Shown here: one piece after another, positions 1 to 9,664 of the stretch | Layout of the letters: each line of letters starts with the position of its first letter | How positions within the stretch are numbered: position 1 is the first letter of the stretch | Notes under the pieces: generated by a model | What the model was told of the DNA's origin: nothing | Database searches by the model: none | Seen by the model: the letters and a program-made list of their open reading frames with translations, nothing else | Made by a program: the position numbers and the translations under genes | IMG/VR virus record: IMGVR_UViG_3300030109_003556 | Coordinates: 1-36,092 of that record | Length of the DNA stretch: 36,092 bases | DNA from: a virus | Strand: one strand, 5' to 3'

Positions 1-485
1 GCAATATTAGCCCAGGAATCGAGCCGTGGGCTGCTAATGTATTTACGGATCAAAGCGCGAAGGGCACGTTTATCCGTAAGAATCCGACTCTTGTCGAAGA
101 ATTCAAGAAACACAACTTGAATAACGATAAGATATGGGATCAAATATTGGCTGATGGTGGATCTGTGCAAGGTATAAAGGCATTAGATAAAATTACTGTA
201 GGTGAACAAGATATACCTATAAAAGAAGTTTACAAAACTTTTAAAGAGATAAATCAACTAGAGCTTGTTAATCAAGCTGGCATACGTCAGCAATATATAG
301 ATCAAGCTGTTAGTTTGAATTTAGCATTTCCTTCTGAAGTAGATCCTAAGTGGTTAAATAAAACACACTTAGAAGCTTGGAAGAGAGGAATAAAAACATT
401 GTATTATATGAGAACCGAGTCTGTGCTTAGAGGTGATATAGCCAAACAAGCAATGGACCCTAACTGTTTAAGTTGTGATGGATAA
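1..485 (+). CDS. nrdA: Ribonucleoside-diphosphate reductase alpha subunit, C-terminal part (partial)
   Basis: This is the last 160 residues of a class I ribonucleotide reductase large subunit, which reduces ribonucleotides to deoxyribonucleotides for phage DNA synthesis. The reading frame is open from base 3 to the stop at 483-485, so the 5' part lies outside the window; a TTG at 117 is not the true start. The fragment begins NISPGIEPWAANVF, and further on shows ELVNQAGIRQQYIDQAVSLN and the AWKRGIKTLYYMRT stretch that closes the alpha/beta barrel of this family. The protein ends in a CxxC pair (CLSC, then DG), consistent with the C-terminal redox-shuttle cysteines of class I enzymes. The small subunit gene is not in the window. 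It overlaps the next gene by 8 bases and heads the plus-strand cluster seen here. Confidence in the family is high. Confidence 0.93.
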   Translation, partial: NISPGIEPWAANVFTDQSAKGTFIRKNPTLVEEFKKHNLNNDKIWDQILADGGSVQGIKALDKITVGEQDIPIKEVYKTFKEINQLELVNQAGIRQQYIDQAVSLNLAFPSEVDPKWLNKTHLEAWKRGIKTLYYMRTESVLRGDIAKQAMDPNCLSCDG

Positions 486-1257
486 TTTAATGAAAGAGTT
501 ACTAGATCCTGTTGATCCTAAAGTATTTTTTAAAGATTACTGGGGTAAAAAGCATTTAGTATTAAGAAGAAATAAATTTAAAAACCTGTTTAATTGGAAT
601 GATTTTGAGCAGTATGTAAACGAGTTTCCTAAAATACCTAACCTACAAATAATAGGTTGGGATGATAAGCATGAGAAGTGGTGCCTTGATAAGGTTAAAA
701 AAGGTAAATTAAAATTACCTATGCTAACTAAAACACAAGTACACAAAGCGTGGACAGATGGTAAGTCATTTGTAATACCATTTGCTGAATATAGAAAAGA
801 AGTACTTATGAATGTTTGTAAAACATTTGAAAGGTATTTTGCAAAAGGTCAGGTTAATGTATACGCATCGCCTGGTAAAGGATCTAAAAGTTTTCCAGCG
901 CACGCTGATAATACAGAGAACTTTTTGTTTCATACTCAAGGTAGAGTTAAATGGAGAATATTTAAAGAGTTTGCACCAGATAAACCTAAAGAAATACTTG
1001 AAGAGTTTATATTAGAGGCAGGTGATTTATTATATATACCACAGTTTCAATATCATGAGGTTATACCTATTGGTGCTAGAATATTATGTAGTATTCATTT
1101 TCCAAACAAACCAAAGCAGTCGCTAAAGAATTTTCAAATATCAAAAAATTCTAAACGTGAGCCATGGTATAAATGGCAACCAGAAAAGTATGATGCTGAT
1201 GGTTATAGAAATGATGAAGACTTTCCATACAAATGGAAAGATTCTAGAAAATGGTAA
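478..1257 (+). CDS. JmjC/cupin-type Fe(II)/2-oxoglutarate-dependent dioxygenase
   Basis: A 259-residue protein of the JmjC-like (Cupin_4, ribosomal-oxygenase-like) dioxygenase group. The N-terminal FFKDYWGKKHLVLRR stretch (about residues 17-31) is the entry motif common in this group. The iron-binding HxD is H142-A-D144 inside AHADNTENF, followed by the strand GRVKWRIF. The distal histidine is H193 in LEAGDLLYIPQFQYHEV. All three iron ligands are therefore present. Family members hydroxylate protein side chains or small molecules; the substrate here is unknown. I chose ATG 478, which overlaps the reductase stop; a GTG at 475 and an ATG at 490 are alternatives. The radical SAM gene starts one base after its stop. 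Its place before a sugar cassette allows a role in sugar or glycoconjugate modification, but that is inference. Confidence 0.8.
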   Translation: MDNLMKELLDPVDPKVFFKDYWGKKHLVLRRNKFKNLFNWNDFEQYVNEFPKIPNLQIIGWDDKHEKWCLDKVKKGKLKLPMLTKTQVHKAWTDGKSFVIPFAEYRKEVLMNVCKTFERYFAKGQVNVYASPGKGSKSFPAHADNTENFLFHTQGRVKWRIFKEFAPDKPKEILEEFILEAGDLLYIPQFQYHEVIPIGARILCSIHFPNKPKQSLKNFQISKNSKREPWYKWQPEKYDADGYRNDEDFPYKWKDSRKW

Positions 1258-1258
1258 T

Positions 1259-2197
1259 ATGAAACAAGAAGAAAGAAAAAATCATCAAGTACACGATGCA
1301 GACACTTTTCTTGAATATAGAAGAAAACAAGAACAAGTACATTTAAATAGAATAAAAGGTAGTACTAATCCGTTAGATGCTATACTTACTATTGAACTTA
1401 ATACAACTGAGTTGTGTAATAGAAAATGTATATTTTGTCCAAGGTTTGCGGCTGATGTTTATCCTAATAGGAATTTAAACATGAGTGTTGAAGTTGCTGA
1501 AAAAATAGCTAAGCATTTAGCTGATGCTAATTATACAGGTAGAATATCTTTTAGTGGATACAGTGAAGGACTACTAAATAAAAGCTTTGCTGATATAGTT
1601 TTTACTTTTAGAAAACATTTAAAAGATAATCTACTAGAGTGTAATACAAATGGTGATGTATTAGGTACGAGAGTAAATCCTCAGGACCTATATAACTCAG
1701 GCTTAGATATGTTGTATATAAATATGTACGATGGACCAGATCAAGCCGATCACTTTCTTAAAATAATGGAAGAGGCTGGTGTATCAAAACGTAAGTTTAG
1801 TTTGCGAGCTCATTATAATTTAAAAGATTATGGTTTAAAGCTTAATAATAGAAGTGGTGTAATAGACTGGATAGGTTTTGAGGATCACGATATTGAAGAG
1901 TTAAAAGGTAAACCATGTCATTATCCATTTTATAAAATGTTTGTTGACTGGAATGGCGACGTATTGTTTTGCTCAAACGATTGGGGTAAAGAAAGAAAGA
2001 TAGGTAATATAGCTAAACAAACTTTAGAAGAGGTTTGGATGGCTGATGATATGAAAGAGATAAGACAAAGATTAAAGCACGGTGATAGATCACAGAGTCC
2101 ATGTGATAAATGCTCTGTTAAAGGTGATTTATTTGGTAAGCCTAGTTTTGATCTTATAAATAAACATTATGAAAGTAGCGATAACGGGAACAACTAG
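1259..2197 (+). CDS. Radical SAM enzyme with SPASM/twitch-like C-terminal cysteine domain
   Basis: A 312-residue radical SAM protein. The 4Fe-4S cluster motif CxxxCxxC is C53-NRK-C57-IF-C60 within NTTELCNRKCIFCPRF. The SFSGYSEGL segment near residue 98 fits the strand after the first barrel turns. The C-terminal part has C220, C238 (FVDWNGDVLFCSNDWG), C282 and C285, with the IGNIAKQTLEEVW block, typical of SPASM/twitch domains that hold an auxiliary iron-sulfur cluster. Family members modify peptides or act on sugars, often in polysaccharide clusters; the substrate cannot be read from sequence. ATG 1259 is preferred over a longer in-frame opening at 1157 because that would overlap the dioxygenase gene by 100 bases and the added residues look non-conserved. 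Its 3' end overlaps the SDR gene by 29 bases. Confidence 0.85.
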   Translation: MKQEERKNHQVHDADTFLEYRRKQEQVHLNRIKGSTNPLDAILTIELNTTELCNRKCIFCPRFAADVYPNRNLNMSVEVAEKIAKHLADANYTGRISFSGYSEGLLNKSFADIVFTFRKHLKDNLLECNTNGDVLGTRVNPQDLYNSGLDMLYINMYDGPDQADHFLKIMEEAGVSKRKFSLRAHYNLKDYGLKLNNRSGVIDWIGFEDHDIEELKGKPCHYPFYKMFVDWNGDVLFCSNDWGKERKIGNIAKQTLEEVWMADDMKEIRQRLKHGDRSQSPCDKCSVKGDLFGKPSFDLINKHYESSDNGNN

Positions 2198-2768
2198 AGG
2201 CTTAGGTAAAGCAATACAAAATGAGTTGTGTGGCAAGTGGATACCAGTAGGTTTTAATAGGCCTAAGTATGATATATGCTGTCCTAAATGTATAAATGCA
2301 TTAACTGAAGAATTAAAAAACCCTGAGTATAGAGTTTTTATAAACAATGCTCATGAAACATTTTGTCAGACAGAAGTGTTAGCGGCTGTGTTTAACTTAT
2401 GGGCTAATGACTCAAGTAAAGTTATTGTAAATATAAATAGTAGAGCAAAGTATCCTAACCTATCAAAAGGTTATATGTACTCAGCTTCTAAAGCATCTTT
2501 ATCACATTTATCAGATAGTTTAAAATTTACTACACCTAAAAAATGTAAGATAGTAGATGTTAACTTAGGTTTATTAGAATCAGATTTACCTAGTTTAACA
2601 TATAAAGAAGCGGCACATACTATAGTATGGGTAATTCAAAACGCTACTCAAAGAAGAAAATTAGAAATAGGCTCAATAGATTTATATCACAATGAGTCTT
2701 ATGTAGAAGTACAAAAACAAAAACAAATAAAATTAAATGAAAGCAGGAAAAATATGGGGAAAAACTGA
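2169..2768 (+). CDS. Short-chain dehydrogenase/reductase (SDR), compact
   Basis: A 199-residue NAD(P)-dependent oxidoreductase of the short-chain dehydrogenase family. The Rossmann glycine motif is TGTTRGLG (residues 6-13), the structural NNA motif is at 59-61, the catalytic serine is probably S91 (INSRA), and YxxxK is Y104-SAS-K108. The protein is about 50 residues shorter than typical classical SDRs, with the C-terminal substrate loop reduced. Between the cofactor site and NNA lies an unusual cysteine trio (CCPKC, about residues 37-41). It overlaps both neighbours (29 bases with the radical SAM gene, 32 with the cupin gene), so it is part of one transcription unit. It might oxidise or reduce a sugar hydroxyl in the octulosonate pathway; this is inference from position. 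Confidence 0.8.
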   Translation: MKVAITGTTRGLGKAIQNELCGKWIPVGFNRPKYDICCPKCINALTEELKNPEYRVFINNAHETFCQTEVLAAVFNLWANDSSKVIVNINSRAKYPNLSKGYMYSASKASLSHLSDSLKFTTPKKCKIVDVNLGLLESDLPSLTYKEAAHTIVWVIQNATQRRKLEIGSIDLYHNESYVEVQKQKQIKLNESRKNMGKN

Positions 2769-3081
2769 AAAGATCCACGCTAATGGAGTTTTTGAGTTTC
2801 ACCGAATAGAATTTAATAAAGGATTTAAATGCTCAGAACACGAGCATGAATTTAAATGGAACGGATTTTATGTAGAGTCCGGTAAAATGTTAATCAGAGT
2901 CTGGCAAGATGATCAAAATCTTTTAGATGAGACAATATTAGAAGCAGGTGATTTTACTATGGTTAAACCTGGTAAATATCATCAGTTTGAAGGTATTGAA
3001 GATGGTGTAGCTTTTGAGTTATACTGGGCTGAGTTTAACCACGATGATATAAAAAGAAGAACATCAGGCAAGAGAGCATGA
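2737..3081 (+). CDS. Small single-domain cupin
   Basis: A 114-residue protein that is one cupin barrel. Cupin motif 1 is G-x5-HxH (GFKCSEHEH), with an asparagine where the usual glutamate ligand sits, then GFYVESG. Motif 2 is AGDFTMVKPGKYHQF. Two or three metal-binding histidines are thus present. Small cupins of this shape include sugar isomerases and epimerases, mannose-6-phosphate-isomerase-like proteins and sugar-binding regulators. No exact function can be assigned. It sits directly before kdsB with a 4-base ATGA overlap, which suggests coupled translation and a role in the same sugar pathway. An arabinose-5-phosphate isomerase role would complete the pathway, but nothing in the sequence shows it. 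Confidence 0.75.
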   Translation: MKAGKIWGKTEKIHANGVFEFHRIEFNKGFKCSEHEHEFKWNGFYVESGKMLIRVWQDDQNLLDETILEAGDFTMVKPGKYHQFEGIEDGVAFELYWAEFNHDDIKRRTSGKRA

Positions 3082-3710
3082 AAGATATAGTATTTGTAAT
3101 ACCAGCTAGACTAGAGAGTACTAGGCTAAAACATAAAATGCTTATGATGTTTGATGATGAGCCACTGATACGTATAGTATTTGATAAAGTACGTACTATG
3201 GGTTATGATACATTTGTTATAACTGATAGTCCTAAGATAGCAGAGGTTATACCTAGCAATAATGTTATCATGACTAATGAAGCAGAAAACGGTACAGCTA
3301 GAATAGCTCAAGCTCATGAATTTTTAAGCGAGTATCAAACTATAATCAATATACAAGGTGATATGATAGATATAACACATAAAACTGTAAAGCCTTTTAT
3401 TGATAGAGCTAAAAATAATTTTGTAGTATACACGGCTTACACAAAAGGCTACGAGCCAAACGGTGTTAAGGTTGTACACCAGGCAGGTAAAGCTATGTGG
3501 TTTACTAGATCTGACATTGGTTATGGTGATAGACACCTTGGTATATACATGTATAGGCCATATGCTTTGCAGTGTTATGATTTATTAGATGATGAATATC
3601 CACAAGAAAACTTAGAACAAAATAGATATTTAGGTTTATATGATATTAAAGTATGTGAGGTTAAATATGAAGGTAGAGAAATAAATACACAAGAAGATGT
3701 TAATGGATAA
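3078..3710 (+). CDS. kdsB: 3-deoxy-manno-octulosonate cytidylyltransferase (CMP-Kdo synthetase)
   Basis: A 210-residue nucleotidyltransferase that activates Kdo with CTP to CMP-Kdo in the cytoplasm. Family motifs in order: IPARLESTRL (8-17), NGTARIAQA (71-79), INIQGDMI (90-97, with D95 as the expected metal ligand), HLGIYMYR (153-160), LEQNRYL (179-185) and INTQEDV (202-208). It is about 35 residues shorter than the usual 245-250. In the last motif the aspartate usual in VDTPEDL is asparagine (N203); this may weaken or change metal binding. The related CMP-sialic acid synthetases (NeuA) are less likely because HLGIYMYR and LEQNRYL are KdsB-like. The gene overlaps the cupin (4 bases) and kdsA (14 bases). 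Adjacent kdsA supports the assignment strongly. Confidence 0.9.
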   Translation: MKDIVFVIPARLESTRLKHKMLMMFDDEPLIRIVFDKVRTMGYDTFVITDSPKIAEVIPSNNVIMTNEAENGTARIAQAHEFLSEYQTIINIQGDMIDITHKTVKPFIDRAKNNFVVYTAYTKGYEPNGVKVVHQAGKAMWFTRSDIGYGDRHLGIYMYRPYALQCYDLLDDEYPQENLEQNRYLGLYDIKVCEVKYEGREINTQEDVNG

Positions 3711-4455
3711 GTTTATAATATCAGGACCATGTGTTATAGAGAGTGAGTACACATGTATGAAAATAGCAGAAAAGGTAAAAGAACTTACAGCTAAGTATGG
3801 TTTTGATTACATATTTAAAGCTTCATTTGATAAAGCAAATAGAACTTCTGTAGACTCATACAGAGGACCAGGTTTACAAGAGGGATTAGAAATACTAGCT
3901 AAAGTTAAAAAAGAGTTTGATGTTCAAATAACAACAGACATACACGAACCTATACAGGCTATACAAGTTAAAGATGTTGTTGATGTTATACAAATACCTG
4001 CTTTTTTATGTAGACAAACAGATCTTTTAATTGCAGCCGGCAGAACAGGTAAGACCGTAAATATAAAGAAGGCACAGTTTATGAGTGGTAACAACATGGA
4101 GCACCCAATTAAAAAAGTGCAAAACACAGGTAATAATAATATAATGGTAACTGAACGTGGAACTATGTTTGGCTTAGGTAACTTAGTCGTAGATTTCAGG
4201 CAGATACTAGATATGAAAAAATTTAACGTACCCATAGTTATGGACGTTACACATTCAACTCAAAAACCTAGCGCTCTTGGCAATAAAAGTGGTGGTGATA
4301 GAAAGTATGCACCATACATAGCTAAGTTAGCACAAGCGGTTGATGTTGATGGTTACTTCTTTGAAGTACACCCTGACCCAGACAACGCTTTAAGCGATGG
4401 TCCTAATATGGTACCGTTAAATAATTTTGAAACAATATTAAAATTTATAGCATGA
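3697..4455 (+). CDS. kdsA: 3-deoxy-8-phosphooctulonate synthase (Kdo-8-phosphate synthase)
   Basis: A 252-residue barrel enzyme that condenses phosphoenolpyruvate with arabinose 5-phosphate to Kdo-8-phosphate. Motifs: SGPCVIES (9-16), FKASFDKANRTSVDSYRGPG (40-59), TTDIHE, IQIPAFLCRQTDL (99-111), VNIKKAQF, TERGTMFG, DVTHSTQ (183-189), FFEVHPDP (221-228) and SDGPN (233-237). The GPC cysteine marks the metal-dependent class: C12, H186, E223 and D234 match the ligands Cys11, His185, Glu222 and Asp233 of the Aquifex enzyme with a constant offset. NeuB and DAHP synthase are excluded by KANRTSVDSYRGPG. It is slightly shorter than the roughly 270-285 residues of cellular enzymes but appears complete. 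Start is ATG 3697 or 3703; both overlap kdsB. No kdsC or kdsD gene is visible, so host enzymes would be needed. Confidence 0.95.
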   Translation: MLMDKFIISGPCVIESEYTCMKIAEKVKELTAKYGFDYIFKASFDKANRTSVDSYRGPGLQEGLEILAKVKKEFDVQITTDIHEPIQAIQVKDVVDVIQIPAFLCRQTDLLIAAGRTGKTVNIKKAQFMSGNNMEHPIKKVQNTGNNNIMVTERGTMFGLGNLVVDFRQILDMKKFNVPIVMDVTHSTQKPSALGNKSGGDRKYAPYIAKLAQAVDVDGYFFEVHPDPDNALSDGPNMVPLNNFETILKFIA

Positions 4456-5102
4456 GAATATTTATAGGAAGTGATTCACGTCATCCGCAAGCTACAAAAG
4501 TAGTTAGAAAGTCTATATTAGACAACGGTGATCACGAGGTTATGTCTTTAGTAAAAGCACAGCTAATTAAGCGTGGTATTTATGGTAGAAAAGATGTGCC
4601 TAATGAATCAACAGAATTTTCTTTTACAAGGTTTTATACACCTTTGTGTAACAACTGGAATGGCATAGCCATGTTCTGTGATAATGACTTCGTTTGGAAG
4701 TGTGATCCTGAAGAGGTTGTACAGTACTTAGGAGATAAAACAGTAGCAGTGGTAAAACATAATCTTGATAATGTTAAAGGAACAAAGATGGATGGAGTTA
4801 AAAACAAAATGTATCCAAAGAAATGTTGGAGTTCATTGATAGTATTTAACTGTGAGAAACTAAAAGATATATTAACTAAAGAATATTTAGACAATGCCAC
4901 ACCAAAACAATTACATCAGTTTGAGTGGATAGATGATAGTGAGATAGCTGAGATACCCGTTGAATATAATCACTTAGTAGGTTATTATGAAAAAAATGAT
5001 AACATAAAAGCGATACATTATACTAACGGTGGACCTTGGTTTGATAAGTATAAGGATGGAGAGTTATCAGAAGAGTGGTGGAGCGTATACAACAGCTTGT
5101 AA
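4452..5102 (+). CDS. GT8-like glycosyltransferase
   Basis: A 216-residue protein resembling family 8 (GT-A fold) glycosyltransferases, which move a sugar from a nucleotide donor to a lipopolysaccharide or other glycan. It opens with RIFIGSDSRHPQA, has the metal-binding DxD as D77-N-D79 in AMFCDNDFVW, the acceptor-side CWSSLIVFN (125-133), and ends with HYTNGGPW (189-196), equivalent to the HxxGxxKPW motif of the family. There is no signal peptide or membrane segment, so it is probably cytoplasmic or peripheral. The start overlaps the kdsA stop as ATGA, and the 3' end overlaps the GT29 gene by 28 bases. Donor and acceptor are unknown. Confidence 0.8.
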   Translation: MRIFIGSDSRHPQATKVVRKSILDNGDHEVMSLVKAQLIKRGIYGRKDVPNESTEFSFTRFYTPLCNNWNGIAMFCDNDFVWKCDPEEVVQYLGDKTVAVVKHNLDNVKGTKMDGVKNKMYPKKCWSSLIVFNCEKLKDILTKEYLDNATPKQLHQFEWIDDSEIAEIPVEYNHLVGYYEKNDNIKAIHYTNGGPWFDKYKDGELSEEWWSVYNSL

Positions 5103-5869
5103 AAAATAAATCAGTAATACTTGTTGGTAATTCTGTAGAGTTAATGCATCATGATTATGGTGCGTTCATAGATAGCCATGATATTGTTGTACGCTTTGGT
5201 AGAGCTGTTGATAGCATAGCTGATGATAAAGAAAAACAATTAGGTAGTAAGACAAACGTATGGGTAACTGGTCAGTTCAGAGCTCCTATATGGAAGAGGC
5301 GTAATAAAGAATTTACAAAAGGTAAATTTAAAGACGTTGAGATATTACTTAATAGATGTCGTGGGAATTTTTTACTCAAAGATTGGGTATTAGAGGATCA
5401 CCTACCCAAGGGTATGCCTTATACTCAGATGTGGTCAGACGCAGAGCTAGAATCGCTGTGGAACGGTTTTGGTAATTCAATGTACAGCTTACAACTCAGG
5501 CCTTCAGCTGGGTTTTTAACAATACTATATTTTATTAGGGAAATTAATACTCAAAAGAAATTGAGTATTATAGGATTTGACTTCTTTCATAAGAGTGTAA
5601 AGAAGAGTACATATATGGCTAAAAATGTAAAAGATGGTAATGGTGAATGTGATCCTCACAGTTGGCATTTACCTCTTTATACTACAAAGCATTCAGCGCA
5701 TGATCGTAATTTAGAAAATCAATATGTGAGTAAGTTAGAACGTGATGGTTTGCTTGAGTGGCACACGTTAAGTGATATGAAAAGAAATAAAGTTGAATAT
5801 ACTGGTTGGATGAAAGGTCAGAAGATAATAAGAAGTGTAGCTAAAAAAACGGCTGTGTCAAAAATCTAG
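5075..5869 (+). CDS. GT29 sialyltransferase-like glycosyltransferase (possible Kdo transferase)
   Basis: A 264-residue protein with the sialylmotifs of family GT29. The L motif spans about 14-44 (VILVGNSVE, then IDSHDIVVRFGRA), with GSKTNVWVT following. The S motif is RPSAGFLTILYFIR then SIIGFDFF (142-170). A VS-type motif, HSAHDRNLE, with H206, H209 and E214, is near the C-terminus. Family members use CMP-activated ulosonic acids, which fits the adjacent kdsA and kdsB; plant GT29 proteins have been implicated in Kdo transfer to pectin. No transmembrane anchor is present, unlike eukaryotic members. The start is GTG at 5075 or 5078, because no ATG precedes the L motif. It is the last gene of the plus-strand unit. 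CMP-Kdo as donor is inference. Confidence 0.82.
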   Translation: MVERIQQLVKNKSVILVGNSVELMHHDYGAFIDSHDIVVRFGRAVDSIADDKEKQLGSKTNVWVTGQFRAPIWKRRNKEFTKGKFKDVEILLNRCRGNFLLKDWVLEDHLPKGMPYTQMWSDAELESLWNGFGNSMYSLQLRPSAGFLTILYFIREINTQKKLSIIGFDFFHKSVKKSTYMAKNVKDGNGECDPHSWHLPLYTTKHSAHDRNLENQYVSKLERDGLLEWHTLSDMKRNKVEYTGWMKGQKIIRSVAKKTAVSKI

Positions 5870-5978
5870 CTACAACCTCGGCTATAACCTCAATAATTAA
5901 TAATACAACAATTGGTAGTATATATTCCCACCAGTCATATTTACCGTTCTCATTTAAATCAAAAAAATTAAATTTCAT
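5841..5978 (-). CDS. 45-residue membrane mini-protein with an EF-hand-like loop
   Basis: A short gene read from the nucleotide sequence. Its ATG (5978-5976) overlaps the stop of the 84-residue gene as ATGA and it ends with TAG at 5843-5841, inside the 3' end of the opposite-strand GT29 gene (29-base convergent overlap). The protein starts MKFNFF, then carries DLNENGKYDWWE (residues 7-18), which has oxygen ligands at loop positions 1, 3, 5, 9 and 12, glycine at 6 and a hydrophobic residue at 8, the canonical calcium-binding EF-hand pattern. One transmembrane helix follows (about residues 19-38). Function is unknown; small membrane proteins in this region may serve lysis. The ATGA coupling supports it being translated. 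Confidence 0.65.
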   Translation of the reverse strand: MKFNFFDLNENGKYDWWEYILPIVVLLIIEVIAEVVARFLTQPFF

Positions 5979-6229
5979 TTTGCTCCGCAAGGCTTGCCGT
6001 TAGCTATGTTAACCCAATTTTCTTTTTGAAACCAGTCACGTAATGTAGCACCTTTTTTTCTAGCACCTTTAACATTAGACTTACTGGATCTTTTATATTT
6101 ACCTTGAGCTGCAGCAGATCTCTTAGCATTAATTACTTTTTGCCTCTGCTCTTTACTCATACTTTTGTATTTGTTATATGGTAAACAAACTTTCTTTGTT
6201 CCACCACCCTTTACTTTACTTTTTGGCAT
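5975..6229 (-). CDS. Lysine-rich small protein with C-terminal WF-W-CG motif
   Basis: An 84-residue, strongly basic protein, unrecognised by precise family. The N-terminal half has many K, R, S and G residues. The C-terminus is RDWFQKENWVNIANGKPCGA, a tryptophan and cysteine pattern that I recall in small proteins of marine phages and large algal viruses (possibly a DUF5872-like family), which I cannot verify. The ATG overlaps the stop of the phosphatase gene as TAATG, and its own stop overlaps the next mini-gene as ATGA. A role in DNA binding or in the virion is possible from charge alone. Confidence 0.6.
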   Translation of the reverse strand: MPKSKVKGGGTKKVCLPYNKYKSMSKEQRQKVINAKRSAAAQGKYKRSSKSNVKGARKKGATLRDWFQKENWVNIANGKPCGAK

Positions 6230-6777
6230 TATACTTTATCTTTAATGTGATTATACATTGCATCACCTATCTTCTCACCAAACTTTGAATCTGACTTATA
6301 GTGTGCTTTAGCTACATTTCTGCTATATGAAATGTCTTTACCTGCTTGTAAAAAATCTTTTGCTGCTTTGGGATGTTTGTCTGCTAGTACTTTAGCTATC
6401 ATTATGCCTTGTGCTGAATGGCCTGACGGATATGAAGGTGTCTTCATACTTTTTAATTCATAGTCTTTTAAGTCTACGTTTATTTCTTCTGCTATAGCTT
6501 TAGGTCTAGGTCTTTTGTAAAATCTTTTTAACTCTAGTATTGGTTTTGTGCTTTGGTCAATTAAACCTTGTACTAATTTACTATCATGTGATACATTATT
6601 TTTCTTAGCAACACTACTAAATGTACCTGCTATATCATCTTTATCATCAACGAATTTTTTATCCATTGGTATCTTAGCTATTTCTTTTACTTCTTTGTAA
6701 GTTCCAAGTGATTTGTTGCCAGGTGGTTTATTTCTTTTAAATTTACTTGTATCAAAGTCTTTAAATAAAGCTTTCAT
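6229..6777 (-). CDS. PAP2-superfamily phosphatase
   Basis: A 182-residue protein with the complete acid phosphatase/PAP2 signature: K84-x6-R91-P92 (KRFYKRPRP), PSGH at 117-120 and SR(152-153)-x5-H159-x3-D163 (SRNVAKAHYKSD). These residues bind phosphate and provide the catalytic histidines. There are no obvious transmembrane helices and no clear signal peptide, so it looks like a soluble acid-phosphatase type and not a membrane undecaprenyl-pyrophosphate phosphatase. I chose ATG 6777, which forms an ATGA overlap with the preceding 34-residue gene; a TTG at 6789 would extend it by four residues. Possible roles are dephosphorylation of a lipid, nucleotide or sugar phosphate. A Kdo-8-phosphate phosphatase role would fill the missing KdsC step, but it is on the other strand and in a different module. 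Confidence 0.85.
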   Translation of the reverse strand: MKALFKDFDTSKFKRNKPPGNKSLGTYKEVKEIAKIPMDKKFVDDKDDIAGTFSSVAKKNNVSHDSKLVQGLIDQSTKPILELKRFYKRPRPKAIAEEINVDLKDYELKSMKTPSYPSGHSAQGIMIAKVLADKHPKAAKDFLQAGKDISYSRNVAKAHYKSDSKFGEKIGDAMYNHIKDKV

Positions 6778-6878
6778 TTTTTCACGCAATTAGGTACACG
6801 TCTGCCACCCTTCTTTTTGAAGCCAACTTGTTTATAACCAGTCCAACATTTAGGTTTTTTCTTATAATCTTTTTTCAT
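6774..6878 (-). CDS. 34-residue basic mini-protein with CWTGY and PNCV motifs
   Basis: A short gene read from the nucleotide sequence; ATG at 6878-6876, TGA at 6776-6774. The protein has CWTGYKQVG in the middle and ends RRVPNCVKK; about one third of residues are lysine or arginine. I recall a similar W/Y/PNCV pattern in very small proteins of marine phages, without a known function. Both ends overlap neighbours (TAATG upstream, ATGA downstream), which supports translation as part of the operon. The two cysteines could bind a metal or form a disulfide. Confidence 0.65.
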   Translation of the reverse strand: MKKDYKKKPKCWTGYKQVGFKKKGGRRVPNCVKK

Positions 6879-7023: not shown

Positions 7024-7182
7024 TTATTTGTTTTTATAAGGAAACATTATATTCAAAGCTTCACGTCTACCTTCGCAACCGCAAGGTATATTTAAACCAT
7101 TTGATACTCTATCTACTACAGACTTAATACCAGTTTTACTTGTAAAGTTATGTATACTATCTCCTAACCCTTTTGATTTCAT
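7024..7182 (-). CDS. 52-residue conserved small protein with CGC motif
   Basis: A 52-residue protein starting at ATG 7182, which forms an ATGA overlap with the preceding holin-like gene; a longer in-frame reading from 7233 would overlap that gene by 55 bases and is rejected. The sequence has KGLGDSIHNFTSKTGIKS, then NIPCGCEGRREALN, a pattern of a short amphipathic helix followed by a Cys-Gly-Cys knuckle. I recall this arrangement in Bacteroidota phages and prophages near holin-type genes. The function is unknown; the cysteines may bind zinc. Confidence 0.65.
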   Translation of the reverse strand: MKSKGLGDSIHNFTSKTGIKSVVDRVSNGLNIPCGCEGRREALNIMFPYKNK

Positions 7183-7394
7183 TTCTTTATTTTTTCTACA
7201 GCTGATATGCCAAAGCAACCAAGTGTAACCCATACAAACGAGTTGTAAACAACTTCGTTTATAATGAGATCTTTATCTGCTATAAGACTTGTCATTAAGT
7301 CTGCTATAGCAAACAAAGTCATTACTACAAAAGACGCAAATCCTATTACGTTCTTTTCGTTTATATCGTTTTTATCTTTAAATAATGCCCACAT
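7179..7394 (-). CDS. Two-helix membrane protein, holin candidate
   Basis: A 71-residue protein starting at ATG 7394, four bases after the stop of the preceding gene; an upstream GTG at 7439 would add 15 residues in overlap and is less likely. It has two predicted membrane segments (about residues 15-38 and 47-65) joined by a short charged loop, and a charged C-terminus EKIKK. Size, topology and neighbourhood (an M15 peptidase and a lipoprotein within 2 kb) fit a holin that permeabilises the inner membrane during lysis. This rests on topology only, and it could be another small membrane protein. Confidence 0.6.
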   Translation of the reverse strand: MWALFKDKNDINEKNVIGFASFVVMTLFAIADLMTSLIADKDLIINEVVYNSFVWVTLGCFGISAVEKIKK

Positions 7395-7398
7395 AATA

Positions 7399-7647
7399 TT
7401 AACATTTCCATCTACGTCTAGCTGCAAGACCTCTTTCACTTTTCCAGCCTTTTGATCTAGCGCAAAATGATTTTCTACGTTTAGCAGCTTTACTACCAGG
7501 TTTTACTTTACCTGTTACCGCTGTTTTTAATTTACTACCAGGATTTTTCTTTTTGTAAGCTCTAACACCCTTTTCAGTCATGCCAGCTCCTTCTTTAGTT
7601 GATCTAAAGTTACGTCCTTTTCCTTTTGTAGTTTTTCTTATAGCCAT
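7399..7647 (-). CDS. Basic small protein with GAGMT and KSFCARS motifs (DUF6321-like)
   Basis: An 82-residue, arginine- and lysine-rich protein. It has the ordered motifs EGAGMTEKGVRAYKKKNPGSKL (about residues 19-40), TAVTGKVKPGSKA, KRRKSFCARS and a C-terminal RRRWKC. This order matches, from memory, the DUF6321 family, found in large phages and algal viruses. Function is unknown; the charge suggests contact with nucleic acid. The start is ATG 7647, with AT-rich sequence before it and five bases after the preceding stop. Confidence 0.7.
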   Translation of the reverse strand: MAIRKTTKGKGRNFRSTKEGAGMTEKGVRAYKKKNPGSKLKTAVTGKVKPGSKAAKRRKSFCARSKGWKSERGLAARRRWKC

Positions 7648-7652
7648 TATAA

Positions 7653-7970
7653 TTATTTAACTTTATTTATAAGTGCTTGTATTTCTTCTCTTGTGGCTTT
7701 AATTTCAAATGATAAATCAGCAGCAAACTGCCCTTTTACTTTACCATCTTTTCCTATAACTACAATAACAGGAACTGCTGTTATACTTTGTTTAACACTC
7801 TCAGGTTGCTCTTCTAGCCAAGCATATTGAAGCGTAGCATTTTTAAGCCCTCTAATGTTATAGTTATTTTTGTCGTTCCACTTGTAATTAAAGTGAATTA
7901 CTTTAACTCCACTTTGACCATGAGCAAAAAACCCACATAATATAAATAGTATTGTTATTAAATTTTTCAT
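7653..7970 (-). CDS. Secreted thioredoxin-fold protein lacking the CxxC site
   Basis: A 105-residue protein with a signal peptide (residues 1 to about 19, a lysine then hydrophobic core ILFILCGFF, ending HGQ) of the type common in Bacteroidota. The mature part follows a thioredoxin-like order: VKVIHFNYKW, a helix with NATLQYAWLEEQ, then SITAVPVIVVIGKDGKV with the cis-proline loop AVPV. The position of the CxxC active site is occupied by NYKWND, so no redox pair exists. It may act as a periplasmic binding or scaffolding domain. The start overlaps the 103-residue gene as ATGA. Confidence 0.7.
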   Translation of the reverse strand: MKNLITILFILCGFFAHGQSGVKVIHFNYKWNDKNNYNIRGLKNATLQYAWLEEQPESVKQSITAVPVIVVIGKDGKVKGQFAADLSFEIKATREEIQALINKVK

Positions 7971-8278
7971 CTTTTATAAACTTTATCCTCTAGTTCTTTT
8001 ATAGACTGTTTGTTGTCTAGTATATCTTCTTTTAACACTTCAGTTGATTTTTCTATCTGTATAATAGTAGATCTAACAAGTTCATCTTTTAGTTGAAACT
8101 CCATTTTTTGTACGAACTCTTCACTACCAAAATTATCTATTTTATTATTGAGTTCTTGTATTTCTCCTTGTAGAGTAAACCACATGCTAGCAAGTGACAT
8201 TACACCACCAACTAATAAGCCAATTGTTTTAATATCTAATTTTACTTCTGTATCTTCACTGATTTTTTTTGCTGCCAT
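7967..8278 (-). CDS. Membrane-anchored coiled-coil protein, copy 1
   Basis: A 103-residue protein starting at ATG 8278; the frame is open upstream to 8398, but that stretch overlaps the lipoprotein gene and is translated junk. The protein opens MAAKKISEDTEV, has one membrane segment (about 17-37), then a long charged helix with heptad character to the end KELEDKVYKR. It resembles the 100-residue protein at 9362-9664 in order and in the identical C-terminal KVYKR, so the two look like paralogs. The topology recalls holins or inner-membrane spanin subunits; the function is not proven. Confidence 0.7.
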   Translation of the reverse strand: MAAKKISEDTEVKLDIKTIGLLVGGVMSLASMWFTLQGEIQELNNKIDNFGSEEFVQKMEFQLKDELVRSTIIQIEKSTEVLKEDILDNKQSIKELEDKVYKR

Positions 8279-8291
8279 TGTTGTTATTTTG

Positions 8292-8783
8292 TTAGTTATT
8301 TTTTTTACCACCACCTGTTGACGTGACTGGGTTAGTAGCAACTGGATTACTACCACCACCCGTTGTGTTACCACCATAACTTTGTGATCCACCAGCACTA
8401 CCTATTGTTATAGGAGCATTGTTGTTAGTGTTTGGGTTTGGTATTATATGACCATATGTGCCATTTGCTTTACCATGGTATCTCCATCTGCTATCATGAT
8501 ACCTGTAATCATATCTATAATCATTGTATGGGTTGTAATATCTATTGTCTTGCCATCTAACAAAGTCATAGCCAACAACATTATAGGTTTGTTGTGGTCG
8601 TATTTGATCTATTCTTATCTTAACAGTGTCACCCATTTCCGTTAAAGCAAGTACATGTGTGACCATTACTTGATTGCCTCGGTATAACATAGGTGAACAG
8701 CTTGATAGTGCACCTGCTAATAAAATACCTACAAGCGCTCCTATTGTTATTAATCTTCCTAAGTTTCTTTGTTTTTCTGTCAT
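8292..8783 (-). CDS. Probable lipoprotein with tyrosine-rich middle and Gly/Asn-rich tail
   Basis: A 163-residue protein starting at ATG 8783 (a TTG two codons upstream is less likely). A hydrophobic segment (about 10-25) ends in the lipobox LSSC, with C29 as the lipidation site. A folded-looking part follows (VMVTHVLALTEMGDTVKI), then a low-complexity region rich in tyrosine, asparagine and arginine (about 75-105) and a glycine, asparagine and threonine tail. It could be an outer-membrane spanin subunit by position next to the M15 peptidase and a small membrane protein. The length and low-complexity tail are unusual for spanins. The start overlaps the 39-residue gene as ATGA. Confidence 0.65.
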   Translation of the reverse strand: MTEKQRNLGRLITIGALVGILLAGALSSCSPMLYRGNQVMVTHVLALTEMGDTVKIRIDQIRPQQTYNVVGYDFVRWQDNRYYNPYNDYRYDYRYHDSRWRYHGKANGTYGHIIPNPNTNNNAPITIGSAGGSQSYGGNTTGGGSNPVATNPVTSTGGGKKNN

Positions 8784-8899
8784 GTCCAAATTTTAAAAAT
8801 GTAATGTAATACTAAAATAGCCACAAGCCAAGCACCTTTTAGAAAAAATATAATTCTAACTACCTTGTCTTCAGCCTTTAATTTGTTCCAGTTAATCAA
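8780..8899 (-). CDS. 39-residue single-span membrane protein (TTG start)
   Basis: A short gene read from the nucleotide sequence. It would start at TTG 8899-8897, overlapping the TGA of the M15 peptidase (TTGA), and ends at TGA 8782-8780, overlapping the ATG of the lipoprotein (ATGA). The product is INWNKLKAEDKVVRI followed by one hydrophobic segment (about 16-35). Placed exactly between peptidase and lipoprotein, it may be a lysis component such as an inner-membrane spanin or an antiholin-like peptide. The double overlap is the best evidence that it is a gene. Confidence 0.55.
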   Translation of the reverse strand: MINWNKLKAEDKVVRIIFFLKGAWLVAILVLHYIFKIWT

Positions 8900-9357
8900 C
8901 CTGCGTAATTTGCGTATTGAGTTTTGCCGTCTTTTCTAAATGCTACCAAGCATCTGTTTCTATTTTCACCTGGATTTACGTAGCTTACGTGCACCCAGTC
9001 AGGATTTTTGTGGTCACCAAATTCCCAAATCATCTGATCAAACTGTAAATTATCTTTTATAAAGTTAAACATTTCAGCGTTTGTTTTGTGGCCATATACG
9101 TCATCAATGTCCATAGCTTGACCGTTACAATGTTGTGACTTGTTGCTACCACCGATAGCTTTGTTTAATTCTGGTCCACGATAAAATGAATTTATCCTGA
9201 TAGGACCACCAACCCACTCTCTAAGTGGTTCAAACACTTTTACAGCTAACATCTTCATATTATTAAGATGTTCTTCAGTAGGTTTGTTTTCTAAGCCAAG
9301 TCGTGTAGCGGTTATGCTATACTTACCCTCGCGCATACTAACGTGTTTACTAATCAT
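8896..9357 (-). CDS. M15-family peptidase, probable endolysin
   Basis: A 153-residue zinc peptidase of the D-Ala-D-Ala carboxypeptidase/L,D-endopeptidase type (Peptidase_M15). The fold entry RINSFYRGPELNKAIGG (54-70) is followed by the metal motif SxHxxGxAxD, here S74-Q-H76-CNGQAM-D83, and the second histidine in DWVHVSY (H123). Zinc ligands H76, D83 and H123 are all present. It would cleave peptide crosslinks of peptidoglycan during lysis. There is no signal peptide, so a holin is needed for export; a two-helix candidate lies about 1.5 kb downstream on the same strand. An ejection-associated wall-degrading role is less likely. Confidence 0.85.
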   Translation of the reverse strand: MISKHVSMREGKYSITATRLGLENKPTEEHLNNMKMLAVKVFEPLREWVGGPIRINSFYRGPELNKAIGGSNKSQHCNGQAMDIDDVYGHKTNAEMFNFIKDNLQFDQMIWEFGDHKNPDWVHVSYVNPGENRNRCLVAFRKDGKTQYANYAG

Positions 9358-9361
9358 TTAG

Positions 9362-9664
9362 TTATCTTTTATATACTTTGTTTTCTAAATTATCTACCTT
9401 GTTCTCTAATTTTTCTATTTCTTTTTCTAAATAATCTACTTTTTGTTTTAGTAGTAAACCATCAGATGTTTCTTTTACTTCATAAGCAGGTAGCTCTTTA
9501 GCTAGTTCTATCTCTTGCTTAAGGTTGTTATAACCCATAGTACCGGAGATAATAAAGCCTATGACGATCGCAATACTTTTTACGTCGACTTTGAAGTCAG
9601 GCTTTTTATCGCCATCTATATCTATACCAATTGTTTTATCGCCTAGTTCTTCGATTTGTTTCAT
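9362..9664 (-). CDS. Membrane-anchored coiled-coil protein with Asp-rich loop, copy 2
   Basis: A 100-residue protein with three parts: an N-terminal segment carrying DIDGDKKPD (residues 15-23), an aspartate-rich calcium-loop-like motif; one membrane helix (about 29-45); and a C-terminal coiled coil with repeated KLENKV/NLENKV heptads ending KVYKR. It resembles the 103-residue protein at 7967-8278 in layout and C-terminus. It lies four bases before the M15 peptidase start, in the lysis region, so a holin-like or spanin-like role is plausible. ATG 9664 overlaps the stop of a 12-codon open frame. Confidence 0.7.
   Translation of the reverse strand: MKQIEELGDKTIGIDIDGDKKPDFKVDVKSIAIVIGFIISGTMGYNNLKQEIELAKELPAYEVKETSDGLLLKQKVDYLEKEIEKLENKVDNLENKVYKR

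Follow-up and report, generated by a model that had tools for sequence, protein, structure and literature searches.

Paralogous membrane/coiled-coil proteins and their putative exported thioredoxin-fold partner beside the endolysin genes of Bacteroidota phages

The gene module described here may bear on how phages of Bacteroidota break the outer membrane of their hosts. Among the phages that a spanin survey (PMC6139136) classes as lacking spanins are Bacteroides phage B124-14 and Croceibacter phages P2559S and P2559Y, and a later survey reports unimolecular spanins as the only type in Bacteroidetes phages (PMC12596118). The module lies in a window of 36,092 bp from a marine phage (the whole stretch of DNA analyzed), which covers almost the full length of a virus record of 36,502 bases. 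A sequence-only reading had proposed that two small membrane proteins in it, here called U and D, are a related pair within a duplicated and unusual lysis cassette of a Bacteroidota phage. The host group is borne out by the portal protein, which matched 87 phage records, 86 of them from phages of Flavobacteriia hosts (Flavobacterium, Cellulophaga, Tenacibaculum and Maribacter) and one unassigned; the closest match (53%) is the unassigned record MW202828. What, then, are U and D, and what might they do for the phage? The genes concerned are as follows.

9362..9664, minus strand: U (P0002), 100 aa, single span and C-terminal coiled coil (BLASTP, profiles, hydropathy)
8896..9357, minus strand: E, M15 peptidase endolysin, 153 aa (PF08291, phrog_894, motifs)
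8780..8899, minus strand: T, 39-aa single-span protein with a TTG start (ORF and overlaps)
8292..8783, minus strand: L, lipoprotein, 163 aa, lipobox LSSC (lipobox in aligned relatives)
7967..8278, minus strand: D (P0001), 103 aa, single span and C-terminal coiled coil, KDELVR motif (BLASTP, profiles, tree)
7653..7970, minus strand: X (P0006), 105 aa, Sec signal and predicted thioredoxin fold without CxxC (AF2, Foldseek, Pfam in relatives)
7399..7647, minus strand: B, 82-aa basic protein of the DUF6321 type within this gene run, given no part in the proposed mechanism (PF19846, E 3.7e-11)
7179..7394, minus strand: H, 71 aa, two hydrophobic segments, holin candidate (weak phrog_4325 match, hydropathy)

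The run reads U, E, T, L, D, X, B, H. Four-base overlaps join E to T (TTGA), T to L (ATGA) and the stop of D to the start of X (ATGA); L precedes D by 13 bases, and E and T sit between U and L. The genes from U to D lie on the minus strand where the sequence-only reading had placed them, and its description of an M15 endolysin, a 39-residue protein and a lipoprotein linked by TTGA and ATGA overlaps is accurate. It did not extend to X (7970-7653) or to the two-span holin-like gene (7394-7179), and it left aside how old the paralogs are. Downstream of the cassette is a PAP2-superfamily phosphatase (6229-6789, E 1.8e-7), and facing it on the plus strand (475-5869) is a run of sugar- or surface-type genes, among which ORFs resembling KDO synthesis enzymes and a radical SAM protein were picked out by eye.

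E matches Pfam Peptidase_M15_3 (PF08291, E 6.4e-15) and the PHROG endolysin family phrog_894 (E 1.3e-29) and carries the SxHxxGxAxD and WxH motifs of the M15 metal site; no signal peptide was seen in it. H, scanned as an 86-aa ORF, has a weak match to the holin family phrog_4325 (E 0.007) and hydropathy peaks at residues 16 and 48, and is a weakly supported holin candidate of the window. Sequences of its kind number 28 and those of the T kind 14 (distinct, window's included), the latter mostly lying between E and L, with T dN/dS values of 0.12-1.15 in eight comparisons, seven of them below 1. The lipobox cysteine of L is present in all 36 aligned relatives, and among 56 distinct ORFs no shorter than 100 aa a simple motif scan finds the lipobox in 46. 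The tail of L is predicted to be disordered (AF2 mean pLDDT 47, low confidence), and comparison of L with solved structures gave nothing better than E 0.1.

The relationship between U and D, for which alignment had been proposed as the check, is confirmed at the sequence level. BLASTP aligns them over 94 columns with 29% identity (E 7e-6), and hhalign of profiles built from close relatives of D and U (42 and 24 sequences) gives E 7.4e-9 and a probability of 95.8%; 20 column-permuted profiles reached at most 1.3% and a reversed profile 0.6%, which rules out coincidental likeness between coiled coils as the source of the match. Iterated HMM searches seeded with either protein converge on one identical set of 244 ORFs, spread over 180 loci. 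The link is further supported by three intermediates (L150, L166, L182) that combine a U-like N-terminus (DxDGDGKPD) with a D-like coil motif. Both proteins end in KVYKR and have a single N-terminal hydrophobic segment, as had been noticed earlier, and one span is found in 53/53 D/U members. Lysine and arginine are richer on the N side of the span in 41 of the 53, equal in 11 and poorer in one, and we infer from this a topology with the N-terminus inside; the coiled coil is predicted from weak profile matches to coiled-coil chains. Just ahead of its membrane helix U has a motif resembling a calcium loop (DxDGDxxPD), which occurs in 52 of 139 distinct D/U ORFs, and a 45-aa gene elsewhere in the window (5841-5978) likewise places an EF-hand-like loop (DLNENGKYDWWE) ahead of a membrane helix; a calcium-sensing step is conceivable.

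Comparison with near relatives indicates that U and D are under strong purifying selection. For U, dN/dS is 0.00-0.10 in eight of nine comparisons (dS is saturated in the ninth), and for D it is 0.06-0.11 in six comparisons made with the longest ORFs, which in the window, L127, L010 and L137 include codons before the likely start. These values are as low as those of the endolysin E (0.04-0.11, nine comparisons).

Is the pair the product of a duplication of this cassette? In a tree of 53 members, U falls on a separate side of a branch with 94/81 support and D likewise on one with 100/100, and a third D/U type, matching phrog_20984, is supported at 100/98; the alignment has 110 columns, so that deep branches are weak and the long branches L110, L150 and L182 may be misplaced. 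The separate clades of U and D lead us to reject a recent tandem duplication. The word "duplicated" therefore holds in the sense of old paralogs and fails in the sense of a recent local event. Other phages carry U alone, D alone with X, or mixed pairs; two D/U copies occur in 14 of 50 whole records and at 11 of 53 D-anchored loci. X is absent from 14 of the 50 records, each of which holds a single D/U copy of the U type (three of them, G006, G010 and G015, end soon after U), and phages of ~28 kb have U without X or L.

The cassette is indeed unusual, and its oddest part, the pseudo-thioredoxin X coupled to D, lies just beyond the genes that had first drawn attention. The AF2 model of X is a thioredoxin fold (pLDDT 85.7) whose best PDB matches by Foldseek are thioredoxins (E 1.3e-4 and above, TM-score 0.5-0.64), and Pfam Thioredoxin (PF00085) matches 19 of 51 X relatives (best 8e-9), the window's own X being unmatched. 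X is like the PF00085 thioredoxins in fold and in the cis-proline (51/51 members, the window's included), and unlike them in its Sec signal, in the coupling of its gene to that of a phage membrane protein and in the loss of CxxC, which is found in none of 91 distinct X sequences. NxxN takes its place in 45/51 relatives (WNDKN in the window), the former cysteine positions being assigned from an F-x-A-x-W/F context common with thioredoxins, with profile alignments placing them roughly. A Sec-type signal is indicated by K/R within the first six residues in 51/51 and a hydrophobic stretch in 47/51; the mature part contains cysteine in 26/51. No lipobox occurs in any of the 91 distinct sequences, and X as a lipidated o-spanin is rejected on this ground.

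X is tied to D by position as well. Among 85 non-edge cases it lies directly 3′ of a D/U gene in 83, 51 of them with a four-base overlap; another set, built around one D subfamily, has it adjacent in 52 of 53. The presence of X also tracks a motif in the coil, with 71 loci having both, 23 neither, and 1 and 2 discordant (uncorrected for kinship; the motif was refined post hoc, a first, narrower version giving 64, 23, 1 and 9). This association suggests that X reads the KDELxR coil of D. At three loci (L008:5934-6251, L016:5937-6257, L017:4740-5060) D is followed, with a four-base overlap, by a small exported-looking CSIC protein, presumably resembling a heavy-metal-binding domain, and similar ORFs occur in 25 loci.

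The module is recurrently found close to lytic genes. Searches anchored on the endolysin gave 76 new loci, 60 after dereplication, of which 35 had at least 2.5 kb on both sides; within 4 kb these 35 contain D/U in 34, X in 28, L in 25, H in 19 and T in 8. Among 65 dereplicated D/U loci, M15 lies within 3 kb in 58 and a holin-like gene in 33, and for the 31 D/U groups with no endolysin-anchored locus the corresponding figures are 24 and 17. In the D-anchored set M15 is within 4 kb in 41/53, and three of the 12 loci where it is not hold a DUF5675-like gene. The enzyme can differ: it is an Amidase_2 (E 2.6e-20) in the L090 cassette, and that of L088, which we take to be DUF5675-like, has relatives annotated as L,D-carboxypeptidase/transpeptidase and peptidoglycan hydrolase. 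By similarity to the latter, L258, L264 and L278 also have DUF5675-like enzymes. The module thus persists while the lytic enzyme varies (M15, Amidase_2 or DUF5675-like). At L088, U, X, D and L form one overlapping block between the enzyme and a holin-like gene. Exceptions are the records of L140 and L142, where a long distance (about 26 and 8 kb) separates D/U and X from the endolysin. The recurrent endolysin linkage and the recognized holins nearby agree with the earlier view of a lysis cassette, and a lysis role for the set is well supported; what each member would do in lysis we infer.

Several further small genes were seen at these loci. At L008:4723-5004 the start of U is overlapped by the gene for a coiled-coil protein that has its span at the C-terminus, like ORFs lie just upstream of U in L018, L029, L138 and L139, and similar ones occur in 31 loci; we assume that this protein is XhlA-like. 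Another coil-lipoprotein pair may exist at L278:6347-7247, where the second of two D/U copies overlaps a 198-aa ORF that follows it and whose start resembles a lipobox; the DUF5675-like enzyme comes next. For the 146-aa neighbor of U at L038, considered as a recognized holin, neither Pfam nor PHROG gave support.

One role in lysis would be timing: U and D could be a holin/antiholin pair that sets when the holin acts, with X a periplasmic regulator of the D coil. The analogue would be the T4 holin T and its antiholin RI. The PHROG matches of the 53 D/U members lean this way: 10 are to the holin/anti-holin family phrog_10340 (best E 2e-7) and four to the holin family phrog_1296, both chiefly through the membrane segment and its N-flank, and one is to a spanin family. 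The phrog_10340 matches, however, mostly cover about 35 residues around the membrane helix. The family phrog_20984, of unknown function, matches 11 members (best 2.4e-14) and best fits the second-copy type (L197, L153). In the window, D matches neither phrog_10340 nor phrog_20984 at E 0.01, and U matches phrog_10340 only (E 5e-4). The recurrence of paralog pairs fits timing, as does X, which by sequence is soluble, exported and unlipidated, and there is a precedent in a mycobacteriophage, where the timing of lysis is reported to be shaped by a one-span protein that lies next to a holin-like protein with two spans (PMC13056207). Against it are the ~28-kb phages, whose U is accompanied by neither X nor L, and the recognized holin (phrog_3427, E 1.8e-14 to 1e-20) that already adjoins D-X in four examined loci, L087, L090, L091 and L106. 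Because that holin is a separate protein, D is probably not the main holin. We consider the timing role rather unlikely.

Another role would be at the outer membrane. The D/U proteins and their cassette resemble lambda Rz/Rz1 and T4 PseT.3/PseT.2: a single N-terminal span leads into a coiled coil, the partner gene overlaps, an endolysin and a holin are nearby and a lipoprotein is present. They differ from these in lacking periplasmic cysteines, in having two paralogous coil proteins, in the soluble thioredoxin-fold protein that is the regular partner and in the absence of the lipoprotein from many relatives. According to the spanin survey, 507 of 528 known two-component systems contain a cysteine in one component or both (PMC6139136). 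Here 51/53 D/U members are cysteine-free, the other two having cysteine in the predicted span, and 0/36 L sequences have one beyond the lipobox, so D/U with L appear to lack this spanin mark, with no cysteine placeable in the periplasm beyond the lipid anchor. It could still be argued that U or D is a canonical i-spanin, L its o-spanin and X unrelated to lysis, since L has an invariant lipobox and a disordered tail and since coil and lipoprotein genes overlap at L088 and L086 (D then L, -4) and at L110 (U then L, -1). The missing cysteines speak against this, as do the coupling of D to X rather than to L in nearly all loci and the absence of L from 29 of 50 records with D/U (it is found in 21); a strict lipobox scan of five near-whole, possibly incomplete records with U alone or D-X (G016, G017, G021, G026, G028) found no lipoprotein. 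We regard a canonical two-component spanin as improbable. With a unimolecular spanin such as T1 gp11 the module would share the proposed outer-membrane step; no protein was found here that combines a lipobox with a span at its C-terminus, L being the sole lipobox ORF found in the window and having a C-terminal hydropathy of -0.14 and no span there.

D-X, perhaps with L, might instead guard the cell envelope from superinfection and simply be carried along with the lysis genes. At L096, L108 and L112 D-X does lie in a run of structural-type genes with no recognized endolysin, and one of 36 L members matches the Cor superinfection exclusion family phrog_1119 (E 6e-4). The persistent linkage to changing endolysins and holins, and dN/dS values for U and D that match the low ones of the endolysin, make such a guard a poor prospect in our view.

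The reading we favor, tentatively and at somewhat less than an even chance, is that U and D are i-spanin-like and X is the periplasmic partner of D, together making an envelope-disruption module. It draws on the endolysin and holin linkage, the enzyme swaps, the Rz-like architecture, the U/D-L overlaps and the D-X coupling; against it stand the missing cysteines, the frequent absence of L, the lack of a lipobox in X, the D-X pairs away from endolysins and the holin-leaning PHROG matches (10/53 over 1/53 for spanin). U and D would be paralogous accessory lysis proteins of the inner membrane with their coils in the periplasm, acting at the outer-membrane step after the holin and the M15 endolysin. 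The partner of D would be X, encoded by the overlapping gene and exported as a thioredoxin-fold protein without catalytic activity, and L may also link U or D to the outer membrane. Lysis would begin with permeabilization of the inner membrane by H (or T), continue with the cutting of peptidoglycan by E and end when the freed U/D coils, with X and L, disrupt the outer membrane. A bolder version, which we think unlikely, is that D and X are a third architecture for outer-membrane disruption in many marine Bacteroidota phages, in which a cysteine-free coil works through a dead thioredoxin adaptor that replaces the lipoprotein, U being a second or timing arm.

The wider D/U family is already present in databases, as judged by the PHROG families matched, two of which are named holin. 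In tblastn searches of 50,697 phage records, D, U and three of their D/U relatives found no match, nor did X or L (one relative of each as query), and a literature search covering titles and abstract openings found no description of the U/D pair. For one subfamily, IMG/VR contains at least 571 matching stretches, redundancy included. This is a widespread module with a defined partner, adjoining the endolysin, and in our proposed reading X would be a thioredoxin fold that phages have retained for binding rather than redox chemistry. The set of U, D and X recurs in many uncultured phages, and it may be what finishes the breaking open of a host with two membranes.
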